Below, one piece after another: positions 48,031 through 54,365 of a stretch of DNA of 64,000 nucleotides. Origin of the DNA: Methanoculleus bourgensis MS2 (GTDB lineage Archaea; Halobacteriota; Methanomicrobia; Methanomicrobiales; Methanoculleaceae); assembly GCF_000304355.2 (NCBI RefSeq), contig NC_018227.2, positions 1-64,000 of the forward strand. Direction: 5' to 3'. The position numbers and the translations under genes were made by a program. The first letter of the stretch is position 1. Each line of letters begins with the position of its first letter. The notes below the pieces were generated by a model. That model had not been told where the DNA came from. It ran no database searches and saw only the letters and a program-made list of their open reading frames with translations.

Positions 48031-48516
48031 CTAAACCCTCCTCGCGATCGTCTCGATCGCCTCGATCAGCGTCTTCTGGTGCGGCTTGATGATCGCCACC
48101 GGACAGTCGACGATCTTCTCTACGATCGGTGCAAGGATGGGGGCGCAGATGATCCCGAGCGCCCCCTCCTTGTCGGCCCGTACTGCGGCGATGATGCACT
48201 CCTCAAGGGAGTCAGCTGAGTAGCCCCGGATCCGGTATTTCCGGTTCCCGACTGTGATGTCGCGGTTGTCGAGTTCGTCGAGCAGGAACCGCGCTGCGAT
48301 CGCGGCGATGAAACTCTTCTCCCTGGGTTCGAGGGCGTTGACAATCTTCCGGACGGTGGAGAGCCGGGGATCGGTCTTCCCTGACGTGAGTTTGTAGAGG
48401 GTGGCGGGCGGGATCCCTGCCAGGTCTGCAAGTTCCCGGGCGGTCATATCCTGGCGGTCCAGTTCTTCCTGGAGCGCCTCGGCAAACTCGGTCTCAAAGA
48501 TCCTTCGTGACAGCAT
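48031..48516 (-). CDS. XRE-type helix-turn-helix regulator, divergent from the coenzyme M operon
   Basis: A 161-residue protein. The N-terminal HTH is at about residues 24-62 (MTARELADLAGIPPATLYKLTSGKTDPRLSTV). The C-terminal ~80 residues contain SLEECIIAAVRADKEGALGIICAPILAPI, a conserved archaeal extension that may bind a ligand. It is divergently placed from the ABC ATPase gene with an AT-rich 100-bp spacer, so control of that operon is plausible. The frame runs on upstream, but the ATG at 48516 begins the HTH family homology. Confidence 0.85.
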   Translation of the reverse strand: MLSRRIFETEFAEALQEELDRQDMTARELADLAGIPPATLYKLTSGKTDPRLSTVRKIVNALEPREKSFIAAIAARFLLDELDNRDITVGNRKYRIRGYSADSLEECIIAAVRADKEGALGIICAPILAPIVEKIVDCPVAIIKPHQKTLIEAIETIARRV

Positions 48517-48618: not shown

Positions 48619-49398
48619 ATGAACCCCACACCCATCCGGGAGATCACGATCCTCCCCGGCCGGAGCAGGAGCGGCGAGCCGGAGAGGTTCGAGGCGATCA
48701 CCATCCGCCCGGGCGACACGATATCCATCGTCGGCCCCACCGGCTCCGGGAAGAGCGCCTTCATCAACGACATCGAGGTCTTCGCCCAAAACGACACCGC
48801 CACGGGACGGACGGTCCTCGTCAACGGCGAATACCCACCCGAGGAGTTCGTCCGCGACCCGGCGCACAAACCCGTCGCCCTGATCACCCAGAACACCCAG
48901 TGCCTCGCCGACCTCACGGTTGAGGAGTTCCTTGCGATGCACGTCCGGTCCCGGAAGATCGAGGACGAGGAGATCGTCAGCCGGACGATCGACCTCGCAA
49001 ACGAGTTTACGGGTGAGAAGATCCGGCCCGATGCCCGGATGACCGCGCTCTCCGGCGGCCAGACCCGCTCGCTCCTGGTGGCCGACGCGGTCCTGATCGC
49101 GGCTGCACCCGTCCTCCTCCTCGACGAGGTGGAGAACGCCGGGATCTTCAAGGAGCGGGTGATCGAGGTTCTCCGCGCCGGGGGGAAGGCGGTCATCTTC
49201 GTCACCCACGACCCCCTGGTCTCCCTCCTCTCTGCCCGGCGGATCGTCATGCGGGACGGAGCGGTCGAGCGGGTCATCGAGCCTGACGGCCGTGAGAACG
49301 CCGCCCTCAGGGAGGCCCGCCGCCTCGACGGCATCCTCCGGCAGATGCGGGAGGAGATCCGGGCCGGCAACCTGATCACAGGGTCGGTCGGGGCATGA
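48619..49398 (+). CDS. ABC-type ATPase at the head of the coenzyme M operon
   Basis: A 259-residue ATPase with Walker A GPTGSGKS, Q-loop (ITQNTQ), signature LSGGQTRSLLVADA, Walker B VLLLDEVENAG and H-loop VTHDP. No permease is encoded in the operon, so it may act as a soluble ATPase, for example in cofactor or metal-cluster assembly, rather than in transport (inference). A TATA-like CAAATCTTATC lies about 30 bp upstream, and the ATG is near the expected transcript start (leaderless). Confidence 0.85.
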   Translation: MNPTPIREITILPGRSRSGEPERFEAITIRPGDTISIVGPTGSGKSAFINDIEVFAQNDTATGRTVLVNGEYPPEEFVRDPAHKPVALITQNTQCLADLTVEEFLAMHVRSRKIEDEEIVSRTIDLANEFTGEKIRPDARMTALSGGQTRSLLVADAVLIAAAPVLLLDEVENAGIFKERVIEVLRAGGKAVIFVTHDPLVSLLSARRIVMRDGAVERVIEPDGRENAALREARRLDGILRQMREEIRAGNLITGSVGA

Positions 49399-50102
49399 GA
49401 CTCGTCGTCATCGCCGGGCCGCCCTCCGCCGGGAAGACCGCCGTCGTGCGGCAGACCATCCGTGCCCTCCTGGACCGGCACCAGATCGCCTACCTCAAGA
49501 TCGACGTCGTCCGGGCGTTCGAGGACGAGGAACTCGCGGCCGAGTTCGGGATCCCGGCACGGAAGGTCTACTCAGGCGATCTCTGCCCTGACCACGCCGG
49601 GGTCATGGTGATGCGGGACGCCATCGCCTGGGCCGGGGAGGAGGGCGCCGACCTCCTCCTGGTCGAGAGCGCCGGGCTCTGCCTCCGCTGCTCCCCCTAC
49701 ACGACGCAGGGGCTCGGAGTCGCCGTCCTCTCCGCAATATCGGGGACGAACACGCCCCTGAAGATGGCCGCGATGCTCGCGCTTGCCGACATCGCGGTCG
49801 TGACCAGGATCGACCTCGTCTCCCAGGCCGAGAAAGAGGTCTTCCGGGAGCGGATCCGGGAGGTGAACCCGCGCCTCGACATCGTGGAGACGAATGCTCT
49901 CCAGGGGACCGGGATGCGCTACCTCCTCCGGGCGATCGAGGACTGCCCTGCGATAACCGACCCGGATGCCATCGTGCTCCGGGGTGCGCCGCCGCTCGGG
50001 GTCTGCACCATCTGTATCGGGAAGACCGAGATCGGGTGGCAGCACCACTTCGGGGTCATCCGGAGACTCGAGGGCGCCGACTACCTCTACCGGGGGGACT
50101 GA
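49395..50102 (+). CDS. HypB/UreG-like GTPase
   Basis: A 235-residue P-loop GTPase: GPPSAGKT near residues 8-15, KIDVVRAFEDEE, a cysteine/histidine-bearing loop LCPDHAG, LLVESAGLCLRC, and the guanine-specificity TRID motif. HypB and UreG relatives load nickel into enzymes; cysteines near SAGLCLRC and CTICIGK could bind metal. It overlaps the ATPase gene by ATGA. Confidence 0.85.
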   Translation: MRLVVIAGPPSAGKTAVVRQTIRALLDRHQIAYLKIDVVRAFEDEELAAEFGIPARKVYSGDLCPDHAGVMVMRDAIAWAGEEGADLLLVESAGLCLRCSPYTTQGLGVAVLSAISGTNTPLKMAAMLALADIAVVTRIDLVSQAEKEVFRERIREVNPRLDIVETNALQGTGMRYLLRAIEDCPAITDPDAIVLRGAPPLGVCTICIGKTEIGWQHHFGVIRRLEGADYLYRGD

Positions 50103-50106
50103 CCCT

Positions 50107-50727
50107 ATGGCATGGACTCCGCCCGGGAAGGACTGCGGGGCCTGCGGCTCCCCGACCTGCGAGGCCTTCCTTGCCCTGGTCAGGCTGGGGAAGAAGGACC
50201 TCCCGGACTGCGTCTTCTACCGCACCGGAACTGCTTCCTCCCGGTTCGAGGGCGAGGCCCTCCATTCCGGCCGGGACGTCCTCGGTGTGGAGTACGACTT
50301 CATCCTTGAGCCCCTGCCCGGCGAGGTCTCGGCCCGGAAGATCATCCTCCCCTTCCGCCCTGACCTCGTGGAGAAGTGGGAGATTGTGCCCGGGGATATC
50401 GTCGTCGGGAGACCGGCCGGTGCGGGCTGTCCGGTCCAGCACGTCCTCCAGGTCCTCCACGCGAGTCCTGTGAGCGGCCTTCTCACCTGTCTGGTCGTCG
50501 GGCCGGAGGCCTCCCGGGCCGGAGGGTTTAAGGATATTGAGGCATACCACATCGTCGGTTTTGAGGGGATTTGCCGGACGGTGCGGCGCGAACCCATATT
50601 CGGGATGCGGCAGCGGTTCATGCCCGGCTACTGCATGATGAACCTTGCACATACGGGTGTCGTGAACATGGTGCTCGCACAGTCCTCAGGTCTCCATGTG
50701 CGGGTGGAGGATATCAGGTTGTTATGA
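50107..50727 (+). CDS. Fe-S cluster protein in the coenzyme M operon
   Basis: A 206-residue protein. The N-terminal DCGACGSPTCEAFLALV plus a later DCVF cysteine is the four-cysteine [4Fe-4S] module found in the corrinoid Fe-S protein and related proteins. The C-terminal part contains IVPGDIVVGRPAGAGCPVQH and a final region with GMRQRFMPGYCMMNLAHTG. It is probably a partner or assembly factor for the next protein. Overlaps its neighbour by ATGA. Confidence 0.8.
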   Translation: MAWTPPGKDCGACGSPTCEAFLALVRLGKKDLPDCVFYRTGTASSRFEGEALHSGRDVLGVEYDFILEPLPGEVSARKIILPFRPDLVEKWEIVPGDIVVGRPAGAGCPVQHVLQVLHASPVSGLLTCLVVGPEASRAGGFKDIEAYHIVGFEGICRTVRREPIFGMRQRFMPGYCMMNLAHTGVVNMVLAQSSGLHVRVEDIRLL

Positions 50728-51965
50728 AGACGATGAGAGAGATCGACGAGAAGATCAGGAATGGTTCGGCGGTCGTCTACACTGCCGCTGAGTTCAAGCG
50801 CCTCATCCGCGAGGGTGCGGAGGTCTCGGCCGCGGACGTGGATGTGGTCACCACCGGAACCTGCGGGGTGATGTCGGGGACCGCGGCGATCCTTTCGGTG
50901 CCGGTCGCGGAACCGGGGGCCTTCGAACGGGCGGAGCGGGCCTGGGTAAACGGGGTTCCCTGCATGCCCGGCCCCTGCCCGAACGAGCGGCTCGGGCTCC
51001 TCGACCTGATCGTCTCCGGGACCGCTCACGCCGGGGCGGGGTACGGGGGCGGACACCTCTTCCGCGATATCGTCGAGGGACGCGGGATCGAGGTGGTCGT
51101 GGAGGCCGCCGACCGCTCGGTCGAGGCACGGGTGACGCTCGACGACTTCTCCTACGCCCGGCTCTTCACCACCCGGAGCGCCTACCGGAACTACACCGCC
51201 TACGTAAACACCCAGCCGACCCGGGTGAAGACGATCTTCTCCCTTGAGGGGCTGCAGGGGCCCTGCCGGGAGGTCTCGGTCAGCGGGTGCGGCGAGATCA
51301 ACCCCCTCCAGAACGACCCGCTCGGGCTCGCGGTCAGTGCCGGGACGCCGGTCCTCCTGAACGGCTCCGTCGGTATGGTGACCGGCGAAGGGACCCGGAG
51401 CACTCCTTCGCGCCCCAACCTCACGGCCATCGCCGACATGGCCAGGATGCGGCCCCGCTACATGGGGGGTTTTAGGACCTCAGCCGGCCCCGAGTGCATC
51501 ACGAGTCTCGGCGTCGCCATCCCGGTCCTCGACGACCGGCAGGTCGCGGGGCTCCGGGTCCTCGATGAGGAGATCCCTCTCCCGGTCGCCGACATCAACA
51601 CCCGGGCCGTGGTCGGGGAGGCGACCTACGCCGATGTCTGGCAGCGGCCCGACCGTGAGGTGACCTACCACCCCGAGTGGTGCGAGGAGTGCTCGACCTG
51701 TGTCGTGGCCACGGTTTGCCCGACGGGTGCATTCTCCCGCGAGACCGGGATCGACCGTGACCGCTGCCTTGCCTGCACCGCATGTCTCACCGCCTGCCCA
51801 AACGACGCTCTTTTGGCCGGCGAGGGCTCGCTCCGGGTCGGGGGACGGAAGGTCCCGATCACGCTGCGCCAGTCGGGCCGGACGCTCGCTGAGGACCTCT
51901 GCCGGGACTTACAAGAGATGATCCTTGACGGCCGGTTCACCTTCACGGGAGGCGGGATGCGGTGA
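50724..51965 (+). CDS. Methanogenesis marker 16 metalloprotein (DUF39 plus two [4Fe-4S] modules)
   Basis: A 413-residue protein. Residues ~1-325 are the DUF39 domain, related to the sulfurtransferase that makes homocysteine from aspartate semialdehyde; conserved TTGTCGVMSGTA holds the likely active cysteine. Residues ~330-380 carry two ferredoxin motifs (CEECSTCVVATVCP and CLACTACLTACP). Its place in an operon with cysteate synthase and ComDE supports a role in putting sulfur onto sulfoacetaldehyde, the last step to coenzyme M (the ComF step); this is an inference. Confidence 0.88.
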   Translation: MKTMREIDEKIRNGSAVVYTAAEFKRLIREGAEVSAADVDVVTTGTCGVMSGTAAILSVPVAEPGAFERAERAWVNGVPCMPGPCPNERLGLLDLIVSGTAHAGAGYGGGHLFRDIVEGRGIEVVVEAADRSVEARVTLDDFSYARLFTTRSAYRNYTAYVNTQPTRVKTIFSLEGLQGPCREVSVSGCGEINPLQNDPLGLAVSAGTPVLLNGSVGMVTGEGTRSTPSRPNLTAIADMARMRPRYMGGFRTSAGPECITSLGVAIPVLDDRQVAGLRVLDEEIPLPVADINTRAVVGEATYADVWQRPDREVTYHPEWCEECSTCVVATVCPTGAFSRETGIDRDRCLACTACLTACPNDALLAGEGSLRVGGRKVPITLRQSGRTLAEDLCRDLQEMILDGRFTFTGGGMR

Positions 51966-53254
51966 GGGAGAAGTACCTTCTCCGGTGTCCTGGGTGCGGC
52001 CGGTCCTTCCCCGACCGCTACACCCTCAACTGCCCGTCGGGGTGCGACACCCTCCTCCGGACCGTCTACGCCGAGCGCCGCCTCACCCCCCGGAGCCTCC
52101 CCGGAATCTTCCGCTACAAGGATTGGCTCCCAATCGAGGGTCACCTCCGGGTCGATGCCGGCCCGGTCTCCTACGAGAGCGAACATCTTGCCCGGGAACT
52201 CGGACTTCTCCACCTCACCATCACCTTCTCCGGCTACTGGCCCGAGCGGGGTGCGGGGATGGAGACCTGCTCCTTCAAGGAACTCGAGGCACAGCCGACG
52301 GCCCTGCGCCTCAGGGAGAAGGGGGCCGGGGGGGTCATCCAGGTCTCGTCGGCGGGGAACACCGGCCGGGCGTTCTGCCAGGTCTCGGGCCTGACCGGGG
52401 CCCCGGTCGTGGTGGTGGTCCCGACGGCCGCTGCCGGGCGGCTCTGGACGACCGTCCCGGCAGAGAACGTCTGCCTCATCACGGTGGACGGGGACTACTC
52501 AGACTCCATCGCGTTCGGGCGGGAGGTCTGCTCTCTCCCGGGAATTGTCCCCGAGGGCGGGGCGAAGAACGTCGCCCGCCGGGACGGGATGGGGACGGTG
52601 ATGCTCGATGGGACGCTTTCCGCCGGGAGACTCCCCGACTACTACTTCCAGGCGGTCGGGAGCGGGACCGGGGGGATCGCCGCCTGGGAGGCCGCGGAGC
52701 GGCTCGTCGCCGACGGCCGGTTCGGCCCCCGCCTCCCGGAGCTTCACCTCTCCCAGAACCTCCCCTTCGTCCCGATGGTCCGGGCCTGGGAGGCGGGGAG
52801 GAGGACGATCGTGGCCGAGGATATGCCGGATGCCGAAGCCGCGATTGCCCGTGTCTACGCCGACGTCCTGACGAACTGCCACCCGCCCTGGGGGATCCGG
52901 GGCGGGGTCCGGGACGCATTTCTGGCCTCGGGCGGGAGGATGTATGCGGTCGCAAACGAGGATGCCCGGGGCGCCGGGAGAATTTTTGCCGAGACCGAGG
53001 AGATCGACCTTGACCCGGCAGCCGCGGTCGCGGTTGCGTCGCTCGCCCGGGCGATGGAGGAAGGTCTCATCGACCCGGGGAAGCACATACTCCTGAACGT
53101 GACCGGCGGGGGGTATCAGCGTGTAGCAGAAGACCTCGACCGCTACCCGGTCGATCCCTTCCTCCGTGTCGCGGCCGGGACGACCCTCGACGGGGACCTC
53201 AGGGATGACATCGAGGCCTGGCTTGCGGAGCAGGAGGTGGCGGCCTATGCGTGA
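51962..53254 (+). CDS. Cysteate synthase
   Basis: PLP enzyme related to threonine synthase that converts phosphoserine and sulfite to L-cysteate, the committing step of one coenzyme M pathway. The 430-residue product has an N-terminal zinc ribbon (CPGCG...CPSGC), the PLP lysine in METCSFKELEA, and a phosphate-binding SSAGNTGRA loop. It starts at GTG 51962 in a 4-bp overlap with the marker 16 gene. Confidence 0.92.
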   Translation: MREKYLLRCPGCGRSFPDRYTLNCPSGCDTLLRTVYAERRLTPRSLPGIFRYKDWLPIEGHLRVDAGPVSYESEHLARELGLLHLTITFSGYWPERGAGMETCSFKELEAQPTALRLREKGAGGVIQVSSAGNTGRAFCQVSGLTGAPVVVVVPTAAAGRLWTTVPAENVCLITVDGDYSDSIAFGREVCSLPGIVPEGGAKNVARRDGMGTVMLDGTLSAGRLPDYYFQAVGSGTGGIAAWEAAERLVADGRFGPRLPELHLSQNLPFVPMVRAWEAGRRTIVAEDMPDAEAAIARVYADVLTNCHPPWGIRGGVRDAFLASGGRMYAVANEDARGAGRIFAETEEIDLDPAAAVAVASLARAMEEGLIDPGKHILLNVTGGGYQRVAEDLDRYPVDPFLRVAAGTTLDGDLRDDIEAWLAEQEVAAYA

Positions 53255-54365
53255 GGGCTGTGTCCTCGACCGTCTTGCCGCCCTCGGGGTCGATACCGTG
53301 GCGTCGCTCCCCTGTGATCGGACCCGGGACCTCTGCGCCCTGATCCCGGAGCGGTTCCATGCAGTGAATCTTACCCGGGAGGAGGACGGCGTCGGGATCT
53401 GCGCAGGGCTCGCGATGGCGGGGGGGCGGCCGGTGCTCCATATGCAGAGTTCGGGGCTCGGGAACTCCTTAAACGCGATCATGTCGCTCACCGTCACCTT
53501 CGGCCTCCCCCTCCCCATCCTCGCGAGCTGGCGGGGGGTCTACCGGGAGGCGATCCCGGCCCAGGTGCCGTTCAACCGGGCGGTCCCGGAGGTGCTCGCG
53601 GCGCTCGGGATACCCTTCACGATCATCCGCGATCCCGGGGATGAGGAATTAATCGATACGGTCGTCCGCGACGCCTACGACGCCATGCGGCCGCACGTGG
53701 GGCTGATCCTCCCCTCGTTCTGGGAAGGGGAGGAGGCCTGCCTGCCGGAGCGGGTGTTTCCGAGCCGGGCCCGGGAGTCGGCGCTTGCCTACCGGCGGAC
53801 GTTCCGCGACCCGGTGATGACCCGGTATGATGCAATCCGCGTCATCGCTGCCGCCCTCGACGGCGAGGCGGTGGTCGCAAACATCGGGGTCCCTTCAAAG
53901 GAGCTCTACGCGGCGAACGACCGGGACCTCAACTTCTACATGCTCGGGAGTTACACCCAGGCGACCCCGATCGGCCTCGGCATCGGGCTTGCGACGGATA
54001 GAGACGTCGTCGTCCTCGACGGCGACGGGAGCCTGCTCGGGACCGCTGTCCTCCCGGTCGTGGCGGAACAGGCCCCGGAGAACCTCACGATCGTCTGCCT
54101 GGACAACGGGGCCTTCGGGAGCACCGGGAACCAGCCCACCCCGGCCTCCGGCCTCGTGGACATGGAACTCCTCGCCCTCGCCGCCGGTATCCGGAAGACA
54201 TGCAAGGTGCAGGATGAGAAGGAACTCAAGGAGGCCTGGGAGAGCCGGGGACGGGGGCCGACCTTCATCCACGTTGTTCTGAAACCCGGGAATGCCAAGG
54301 TTCCGAATATTCCGCTTACCCCCGGGGAGATCCGGGAGCGGTTCGTGCGGGCGCTTGGGAGGTAG
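53247..54365 (+). CDS. comDE: Sulfopyruvate decarboxylase, fused ComD-ComE
   Basis: Thiamine-diphosphate enzyme that turns sulfopyruvate to sulfoacetaldehyde. The 372-residue product fuses the two subunits. Residues ~1-165 (ComD) contain the pyrimidine-binding region with the NLTREEDGVGICAGLAMAG block. Residues ~190-372 (ComE) contain the TPP motif beginning GDGSLLG and ending CLDNGAFGSTG. An aminotransferase linking cysteate to sulfopyruvate is not in this operon. It overlaps cysteate synthase by 8 bp. Confidence 0.93.
   Translation: MREGCVLDRLAALGVDTVASLPCDRTRDLCALIPERFHAVNLTREEDGVGICAGLAMAGGRPVLHMQSSGLGNSLNAIMSLTVTFGLPLPILASWRGVYREAIPAQVPFNRAVPEVLAALGIPFTIIRDPGDEELIDTVVRDAYDAMRPHVGLILPSFWEGEEACLPERVFPSRARESALAYRRTFRDPVMTRYDAIRVIAAALDGEAVVANIGVPSKELYAANDRDLNFYMLGSYTQATPIGLGIGLATDRDVVVLDGDGSLLGTAVLPVVAEQAPENLTIVCLDNGAFGSTGNQPTPASGLVDMELLALAAGIRKTCKVQDEKELKEAWESRGRGPTFIHVVLKPGNAKVPNIPLTPGEIRERFVRALGR

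Follow-up and report, generated by a model that had tools for sequence, protein, structure and literature searches.

The window analysed here, i.e. the first 64,000 nucleotides (forward strand) of the Methanoculleus bourgensis MS2 genome (NC_018227.2, a single contig of 2,789,774 bases), carries the type-2 coenzyme M (CoM) operon of a Methanoculleus-like methanogen at 48619-54365. The first three genes of this operon, which encode an ATP-binding cassette (ABC)-type ATPase, a HypB/UreG-like GTPase, and a [4Fe-4S] protein and are referred to below as the trio, behave as a single autonomous unit and do not track the gene for the CoM synthase, MMP16 (ComF), that follows them. The trio was found beside cysteate synthase (CS) in archaea and beside ComA in bacteria, and because both enzymes build sulfonates from sulfite, we tentatively favour a role for the trio in supplying or handling the sulfite used in the first, sulfonate-forming step in anaerobes without sulfate activation. 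CoM clusters with the same six genes as the window are shown by Chadwick et al. 2025 (PMC12068725, Fig. 2B), who note that the genes for the ATPase, the Ni-binding GTPase, and the COG2000 Fe-S protein are often co-localised with CoM genes and assign them no role. The main text of that paper does not discuss the trio in relation to bacteria, Methanoregula lacking MMP16, ComA, or sulfite; the unit behaviour of the trio, its decoupling from MMP16, its occurrence by ComA in bacteria, and the link to sulfite are new here.

The six genes are arranged head to tail in the following order:

48619-49398, forward strand, ABC-type ATPase, trio gene 1 (PF00005, 54 bits)
49395-50102, forward strand, HypB/UreG-like P-loop GTPase, trio gene 2 (PF02492 CobW/HypB/UreG, 51 bits)
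50107-50727, forward strand, [4Fe-4S] protein, trio gene 3 (PF04060, C-x2-C-x4-C-x16-C; this type is COG2000 in PMC12068725)
50724-51965, forward strand, MMP16 (ComF, CoM synthase; TIGR03287, 503 bits; PF01837, formerly DUF39, 319 bits)
51962-53254, forward strand, CS (TIGR03844, 645 bits versus a cut-off of 325)
53247-54365, forward strand, ComDE, the alpha and beta parts of sulfopyruvate decarboxylase fused in one chain (TIGR03845 and TIGR03846, both above cut-off)

The initial annotation had described a six-gene CoM operon with overlapping frames and an ABC ATPase without a permease. All six genes were recovered and their families confirmed by profile scores; no permease gene is present within the operon or accompanies the trio at the loci inspected. 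The junctions are 4-base overlaps, with an 8-base overlap between CS and ComDE, except that the GTPase and Fe-S genes are separated by a 4-base gap and thus do not overlap. The order of the six genes is identical in all 24 MMP16-carrying genomes of the window's order, Methanomicrobiales, indicating that the arrangement is not due to chance.

The archaeal survey covered 197 genomes of the window's phylum, a set outside Methanobacteriales and Methanococcales, in which MMP16 was identified in 92 genomes (90 above the TIGR03287 cut-off and two with fragments). At 93 MMP16 neighbourhoods, the trio was complete at 35, absent at 58, and partial at none, and full-length GTPase and Fe-S protein matches were found genome-wide in the same 49 genomes. 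The gene order ABC-GTPase-FeS is constant in archaea and Clostridia, whereas two metagenome-assembled genomes (MAGs; L205 and L212) have the order FeS-x-ABC-GTPase. These data indicate that the trio is a single autonomous unit.

The trio had been predicted to co-occur with MMP16 in methanogens, as expected of factors that load this enzyme, and this prediction failed: 46 of the 92 MMP16 genomes, including five with the Methanosarcina gene layout, lack the trio, and the trio is not limited to MMP16 genomes. In Methanomicrobiales, it is present in 25/25 genomes with CS versus 1/13 without, and in 24/24 genomes with MMP16 versus 2/14 without, i.e. its presence is matched by CS at least as well as by MMP16. 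One genome of this order (G049) and five further Methanoregula genomes, one of them complete (L208), carry trio-CS-ComDE without MMP16; in these five Methanoregula genomes, the sole PF01837 protein is COG1900a (L-ASST-type). MMP16 is cleanly missing between the Fe-S and CS genes at the Methanoregula loci L207, L208, L211, L216, and L232, and also at L167 of G049. L-ASST, which has been proposed as a ComF backup (PMC12068725), is a candidate for the thiol-forming enzyme of the MMP16-less Methanoregula operons; a literature search on the CoM requirement of Methanoregula returned nothing usable. The trio also abuts CS in families f8 and f21, with the order CS-ABC-GTPase-FeS in the f8 type of Methanosarcinaceae, and is located away from MMP16 in f21 and in genome G166.

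Relatives of the Fe-S protein with 49-62% identity were identified in 29 bacterial genomes, mostly of Clostridia (e.g. Pelotomaculum, Heliobacterium, and Thermincola), and the trio is present in all 29, with one locus cut at a contig end. Two MAG contigs that carry the trio together with MMP16 and are named Bacilli and Nitrospirae (L245 and L259) are likely methanogen contamination and were left out of this count. The tree of the Fe-S protein groups the bacterial rows in a single supported clade, with L205 and L212 as the exceptions. The branch of L172 was disregarded, as this row was out of frame. An MMP16-type protein was found in none of the 22 trio-bearing bacteria tested, and neither ComDE, CS, nor MMP16 is encoded at the bacterial trio loci. 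Co-occurrence with L-ASST is not strict (14/22). ComA (PF02679) is present in 25 of the 29 bacteria. The trio directly follows ComA-ComB at L203 and L215 and ComA at L228, L236, L244, G302, and G303, and ComA lies 5-7 kb from the trio in four further genomes. In the class of Pelotomaculum (Desulfotomaculum-class), ComA is found no more than 7 kb from the trio in six of 13 cases. Since ComA is present in 77 of 85 genomes of this class regardless of the trio, its co-occurrence was dropped as evidence and only its proximity was used.

The trio thus adjoins sulfite-fixing enzymes in separate lineages, CS in archaea and ComA in Clostridia. These two enzymes differ in acceptors and cofactors, and all that they share is that sulfite is fixed to give a sulfonate. 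In the pathway predicted for the window, CS would convert phosphoserine and sulfite to cysteate, a general aminotransferase would convert cysteate to sulfopyruvate, ComDE would yield sulfoacetaldehyde, and MMP16 would replace the aldehyde with a thiol to form CoM, a step established for homologues. The trio, as an ATP/GTP-driven unit, would feed sulfite to CS in archaea and to ComA in Clostridia, either by making or carrying sulfite itself or by equipping an unlinked enzyme that oxidises sulfide with a metal or Fe-S cofactor. A more specific version, in which the trio is a so far undescribed, oxygen-independent source of sulfite from reduced sulfur that replaces sulfate activation and reduction of 3'-phosphoadenosine 5'-phosphosulfate (PAPS), is possible although we hold it with reserve; with similar reserve, the sulfonates formed by that route may be CoM in methanogens and sulfolactate or a relative in Clostridia. 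Biological methane formation requires CoM, the synthesis of which uses sulfite in its first step. Sulfite itself inhibits methanogenesis (PMC8351635), and where the sulfite for CoM comes from is an acknowledged gap (PMC6286981). If the trio does supply sulfite, this gap would gain named, testable genes in both archaea and bacteria, and the focus for the trio would move to the sulfite step, ahead of the ComF step, which is already solved.

Sulfate activation offers a comparison. The yitBA-yisZ genes of Bacillus subtilis encode sulfate-activating and sulfite-forming enzymes. They act together with the ComA/ComB genes yitCD of the same organism (PMC517825). Spore sulfolactate synthesis in B. subtilis pairs ComA/ComB with a dedicated sulfite-making set, as would be the case for ComA and the trio in Clostridia, although that set consists of sulfate activation and PAPS reduction and has no counterpart of the ABC-GTPase-FeS trio. 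Among the ComA-positive Desulfotomaculum-class genomes, ATP sulfurylase is present in 0/13 with the trio versus 58/64 without, its lack in the trio-bearing genomes having been predicted before testing, and it is absent from all 29 trio-bearing bacteria. In archaeal MMP16 genomes, the trio was found in 1/8 with ATP sulfurylase versus 45/84 without. The trio-less genome G022 (L047) has genes for ATP sulfurylase and PAPS reductase directly beside MMP16-ComDE-CS, an arrangement resembling that of yitCD with yitBA-yisZ. At the same locus (L047:11459-12651), CS is split into two overlapping frames by a frameshift or sequencing error. The complementarity of the trio and ATP sulfurylase in bacteria is suggestive. 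A raw Fisher p of 1e-10 for the contrast was set aside, because the ComA tree contains only two to three independent changes of the trio, and the contrast is not significant once corrected for the tree.

Several further observations weigh against a role in sulfite supply. In bacteria, the trio mostly lies away from ComA, and at the loci L056, L249, and L252 it is accompanied by MMP16 with no CS nearby. Six Desulfotomaculum-class genomes have ComA and neither the trio nor ATP sulfurylase. Genome G009 has both the trio and ATP sulfurylase, its trio surrounding a NifS-like desulfurase. Many CoM makers without the trio (Methanosarcina-like and f10) also lack ATP sulfurylase, and some other source of sulfite must therefore exist in them. 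Finally, none of the trio proteins looks like an enzyme that forms sulfite.

Judged by its parts, the trio looks like a nucleoside triphosphate-driven machine for handling sulfur or metal, and we infer its substrate from gene context alone. The ABC ATPase has a Walker A motif (GPTGSGK), an LSGGQ signature, DEVENAG, and THDP, and its Walker A, LSGGQ, Walker B, and H-loop are kept in 23/23 aligned sequences. The GTPase scores 69 bits with the HypB model TIGR00073, under the cut-off of 121, and its invariant residues in the alignment are C64-P-D-H67, C96/C99, C204/C207, and H218. In comparisons with HypB and UreG structures in the PDB, C64 falls on the HypB Cys and its region on the CP(H) motif of UreG; C96 and C99 flank the position of the second HypB metal-site residue and are putative ligands. 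The trio GTPase belongs with the nickel-delivery GTPases HypB and UreG to the CobW/HypB/UreG P-loop family and has Cys/His residues, as putative ligands, at the region of their metal site, but it lacks their N-terminal metal-motif extension, has an extra C-terminal CxxCxG...H motif, and is not partnered by hydrogenase or urease genes. In the Fe-S protein, an N-terminal cluster domain, 48% identical over 31 columns to the [4Fe-4S] domains of the corrinoid iron-sulfur protein (CFeSP; AcsC) and RnfB type, precedes a beta-rich domain with C108, H112, C176, and H182 invariant in alignments. Unlike CFeSP, it has no corrinoid domain, and its remaining 160 residues have no convincing match. A fold search with its AlphaFold2 model (mean predicted local distance difference test score, 90) gave a match confined to the cluster domain, with small-barrel matches of Z 5.5 or less elsewhere; because these are weak, no function was read from the search.

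The main rival to a sulfite role is general delivery of metal or sulfur, in which the trio would mature or metallate another enzyme of the pathway or the cell (by Ni, Zn, or Fe-S delivery) and its tie to sulfonates would be regulatory only. This is possible, if doubtful. It is consistent with the HypB/UreG-like GTPase and its metal-type Cys/His residues, with the NifS-like desulfurase inside the trio at L172, and with paralogous GTPase-ABC pairs that lie near genes for DUF364/DUF4213 proteins, FecCD transporters, and solute-binding proteins. Alone, it accounts neither for the repeated CS or ComA partners nor for the ATP sulfurylase contrast. CS and ComA use pyridoxal phosphate and Mg2+, respectively, and need no such loading.

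The function given to the trio in the initial annotation, i.e. supplying MMP16 with sulfur or a metal/Fe-S cluster for the thiolation of sulfoacetaldehyde, is improbable, and the co-occurrence data led us to reject it as the main role. The position of the trio directly before MMP16 in 24/24 genomes of the Methanoculleus order, the three loci with MMP16 and no nearby CS, and the two-cluster ferredoxin tail of MMP16 all suit it; set against these are the half of the MMP16 genomes that lack the trio, the bacteria and Methanoregula that have the trio and no MMP16, and the activity of MMP16 in Escherichia coli and in Methanosarcina (PMC12068725), given that the five sampled Methanosarcina-like genomes have no trio. 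The MMP16-less Methanoregula operons would also suit a trio that acts as a backup or substitute ComF, making the thiol where MMP16 is absent. This is very improbable: the same genomes retain the COG1900a L-ASST-type protein, itself proposed as a backup (PMC12068725); in the window's order, the trio and MMP16 are mostly found together; and no ComDE, CS, or MMP16 is encoded at the trio loci of bacteria. There is likewise only a small chance that the trio serves sulfonate uptake, retention, or sensing with a permease from elsewhere. SsuA/NMT1-like binding-protein genes adjoin some trios, and an SsuABC-like transporter flanks trio-less f10 CoM clusters, but the loci examined show no permease that accompanies the trio, and we know of no transport precedent for its GTPase or Fe-S protein.

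The other half of the initial interpretation, that MMP16 is ComF, is correct, although it is already published and not new here. According to PMC12068725, the homologue MJ1681 enables E. coli to convert sulfoacetaldehyde to CoM (White 2019), and a Methanosarcina acetivorans MMP16 deletion mutant shows slow growth when CoM is omitted and is auxotrophic for CoM when sulfide is absent; Chadwick et al. 2025 showed MMP16 to be the primary CoM synthase. The window protein covers model positions 1-390 of 391 in TIGR03287, its 503 bits comparing with a cut-off of 364, and is therefore identified as ComF, the sulfoacetaldehyde-to-CoM activity being predicted from these homologues. It consists of a COG1900 domain (PF01837) followed by a two-cluster ferredoxin tail (Fer4). 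In 91 sequences, C85 is conserved in 96%, C189 in 91%, and the eight ferredoxin Cys residues in 98-100%. The first ferredoxin motif (residues 320-332; 51681-51720) has an unusual spacing, C-x2-C-x2-C-x5-C, throughout the family. The homocysteine-making COG1900/PF01837 enzyme, a copy of which lies at 1,899,390 of the window's genome, shares its family and an analogous aldehyde-to-thiol chemistry with MMP16, but it forms homocysteine and has its catalytic cysteine at another sequence position; C200/C202 of MMP16 are dispensable in vivo (PMC12068725).

A regulator gene precedes the operon:

48031-48516, reverse strand, XRE-type helix-turn-helix (HTH) regulator (PF01381), divergent from the operon

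Among the loci searched, 55 have a homologue of this regulator, nearly always either just upstream of the ABC gene or, where the trio is missing or located elsewhere, near MMP16 or CS; in most Methanomicrobiales loci it is divergent from the trio operon. The gene is a candidate CoM operon regulator.

Further variation was observed at individual loci. In genome G003, a member of the window's genus, the CoM operon (L164:8873-10868) is decayed, with a frameshifted ABC gene and a deletion that fuses the start of the GTPase gene to the end of ComDE, so that the Fe-S, MMP16, and CS genes are lost; this strain is likely a CoM auxotroph. The window's genome has a paralogous GTPase-ABC pair without an Fe-S gene (L160:9218-11706; 1774217 onward), which adjoins a DUF364/DUF4213 gene for putative heavy-metal chelation and an MtrH-like gene. 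In G009 (L172:8968-10128), the NifS-like cysteine desulfurase gene lies between the GTPase and Fe-S genes, and the vicinity holds a further NifS as well as a ThiF-like gene. In trio-less CoM clusters of family f10 (L039:5833-7437 and related loci), which also have the SsuABC-like transporter, MMP16 is preceded by a CCG-domain, HdrD-like Fe-S gene.

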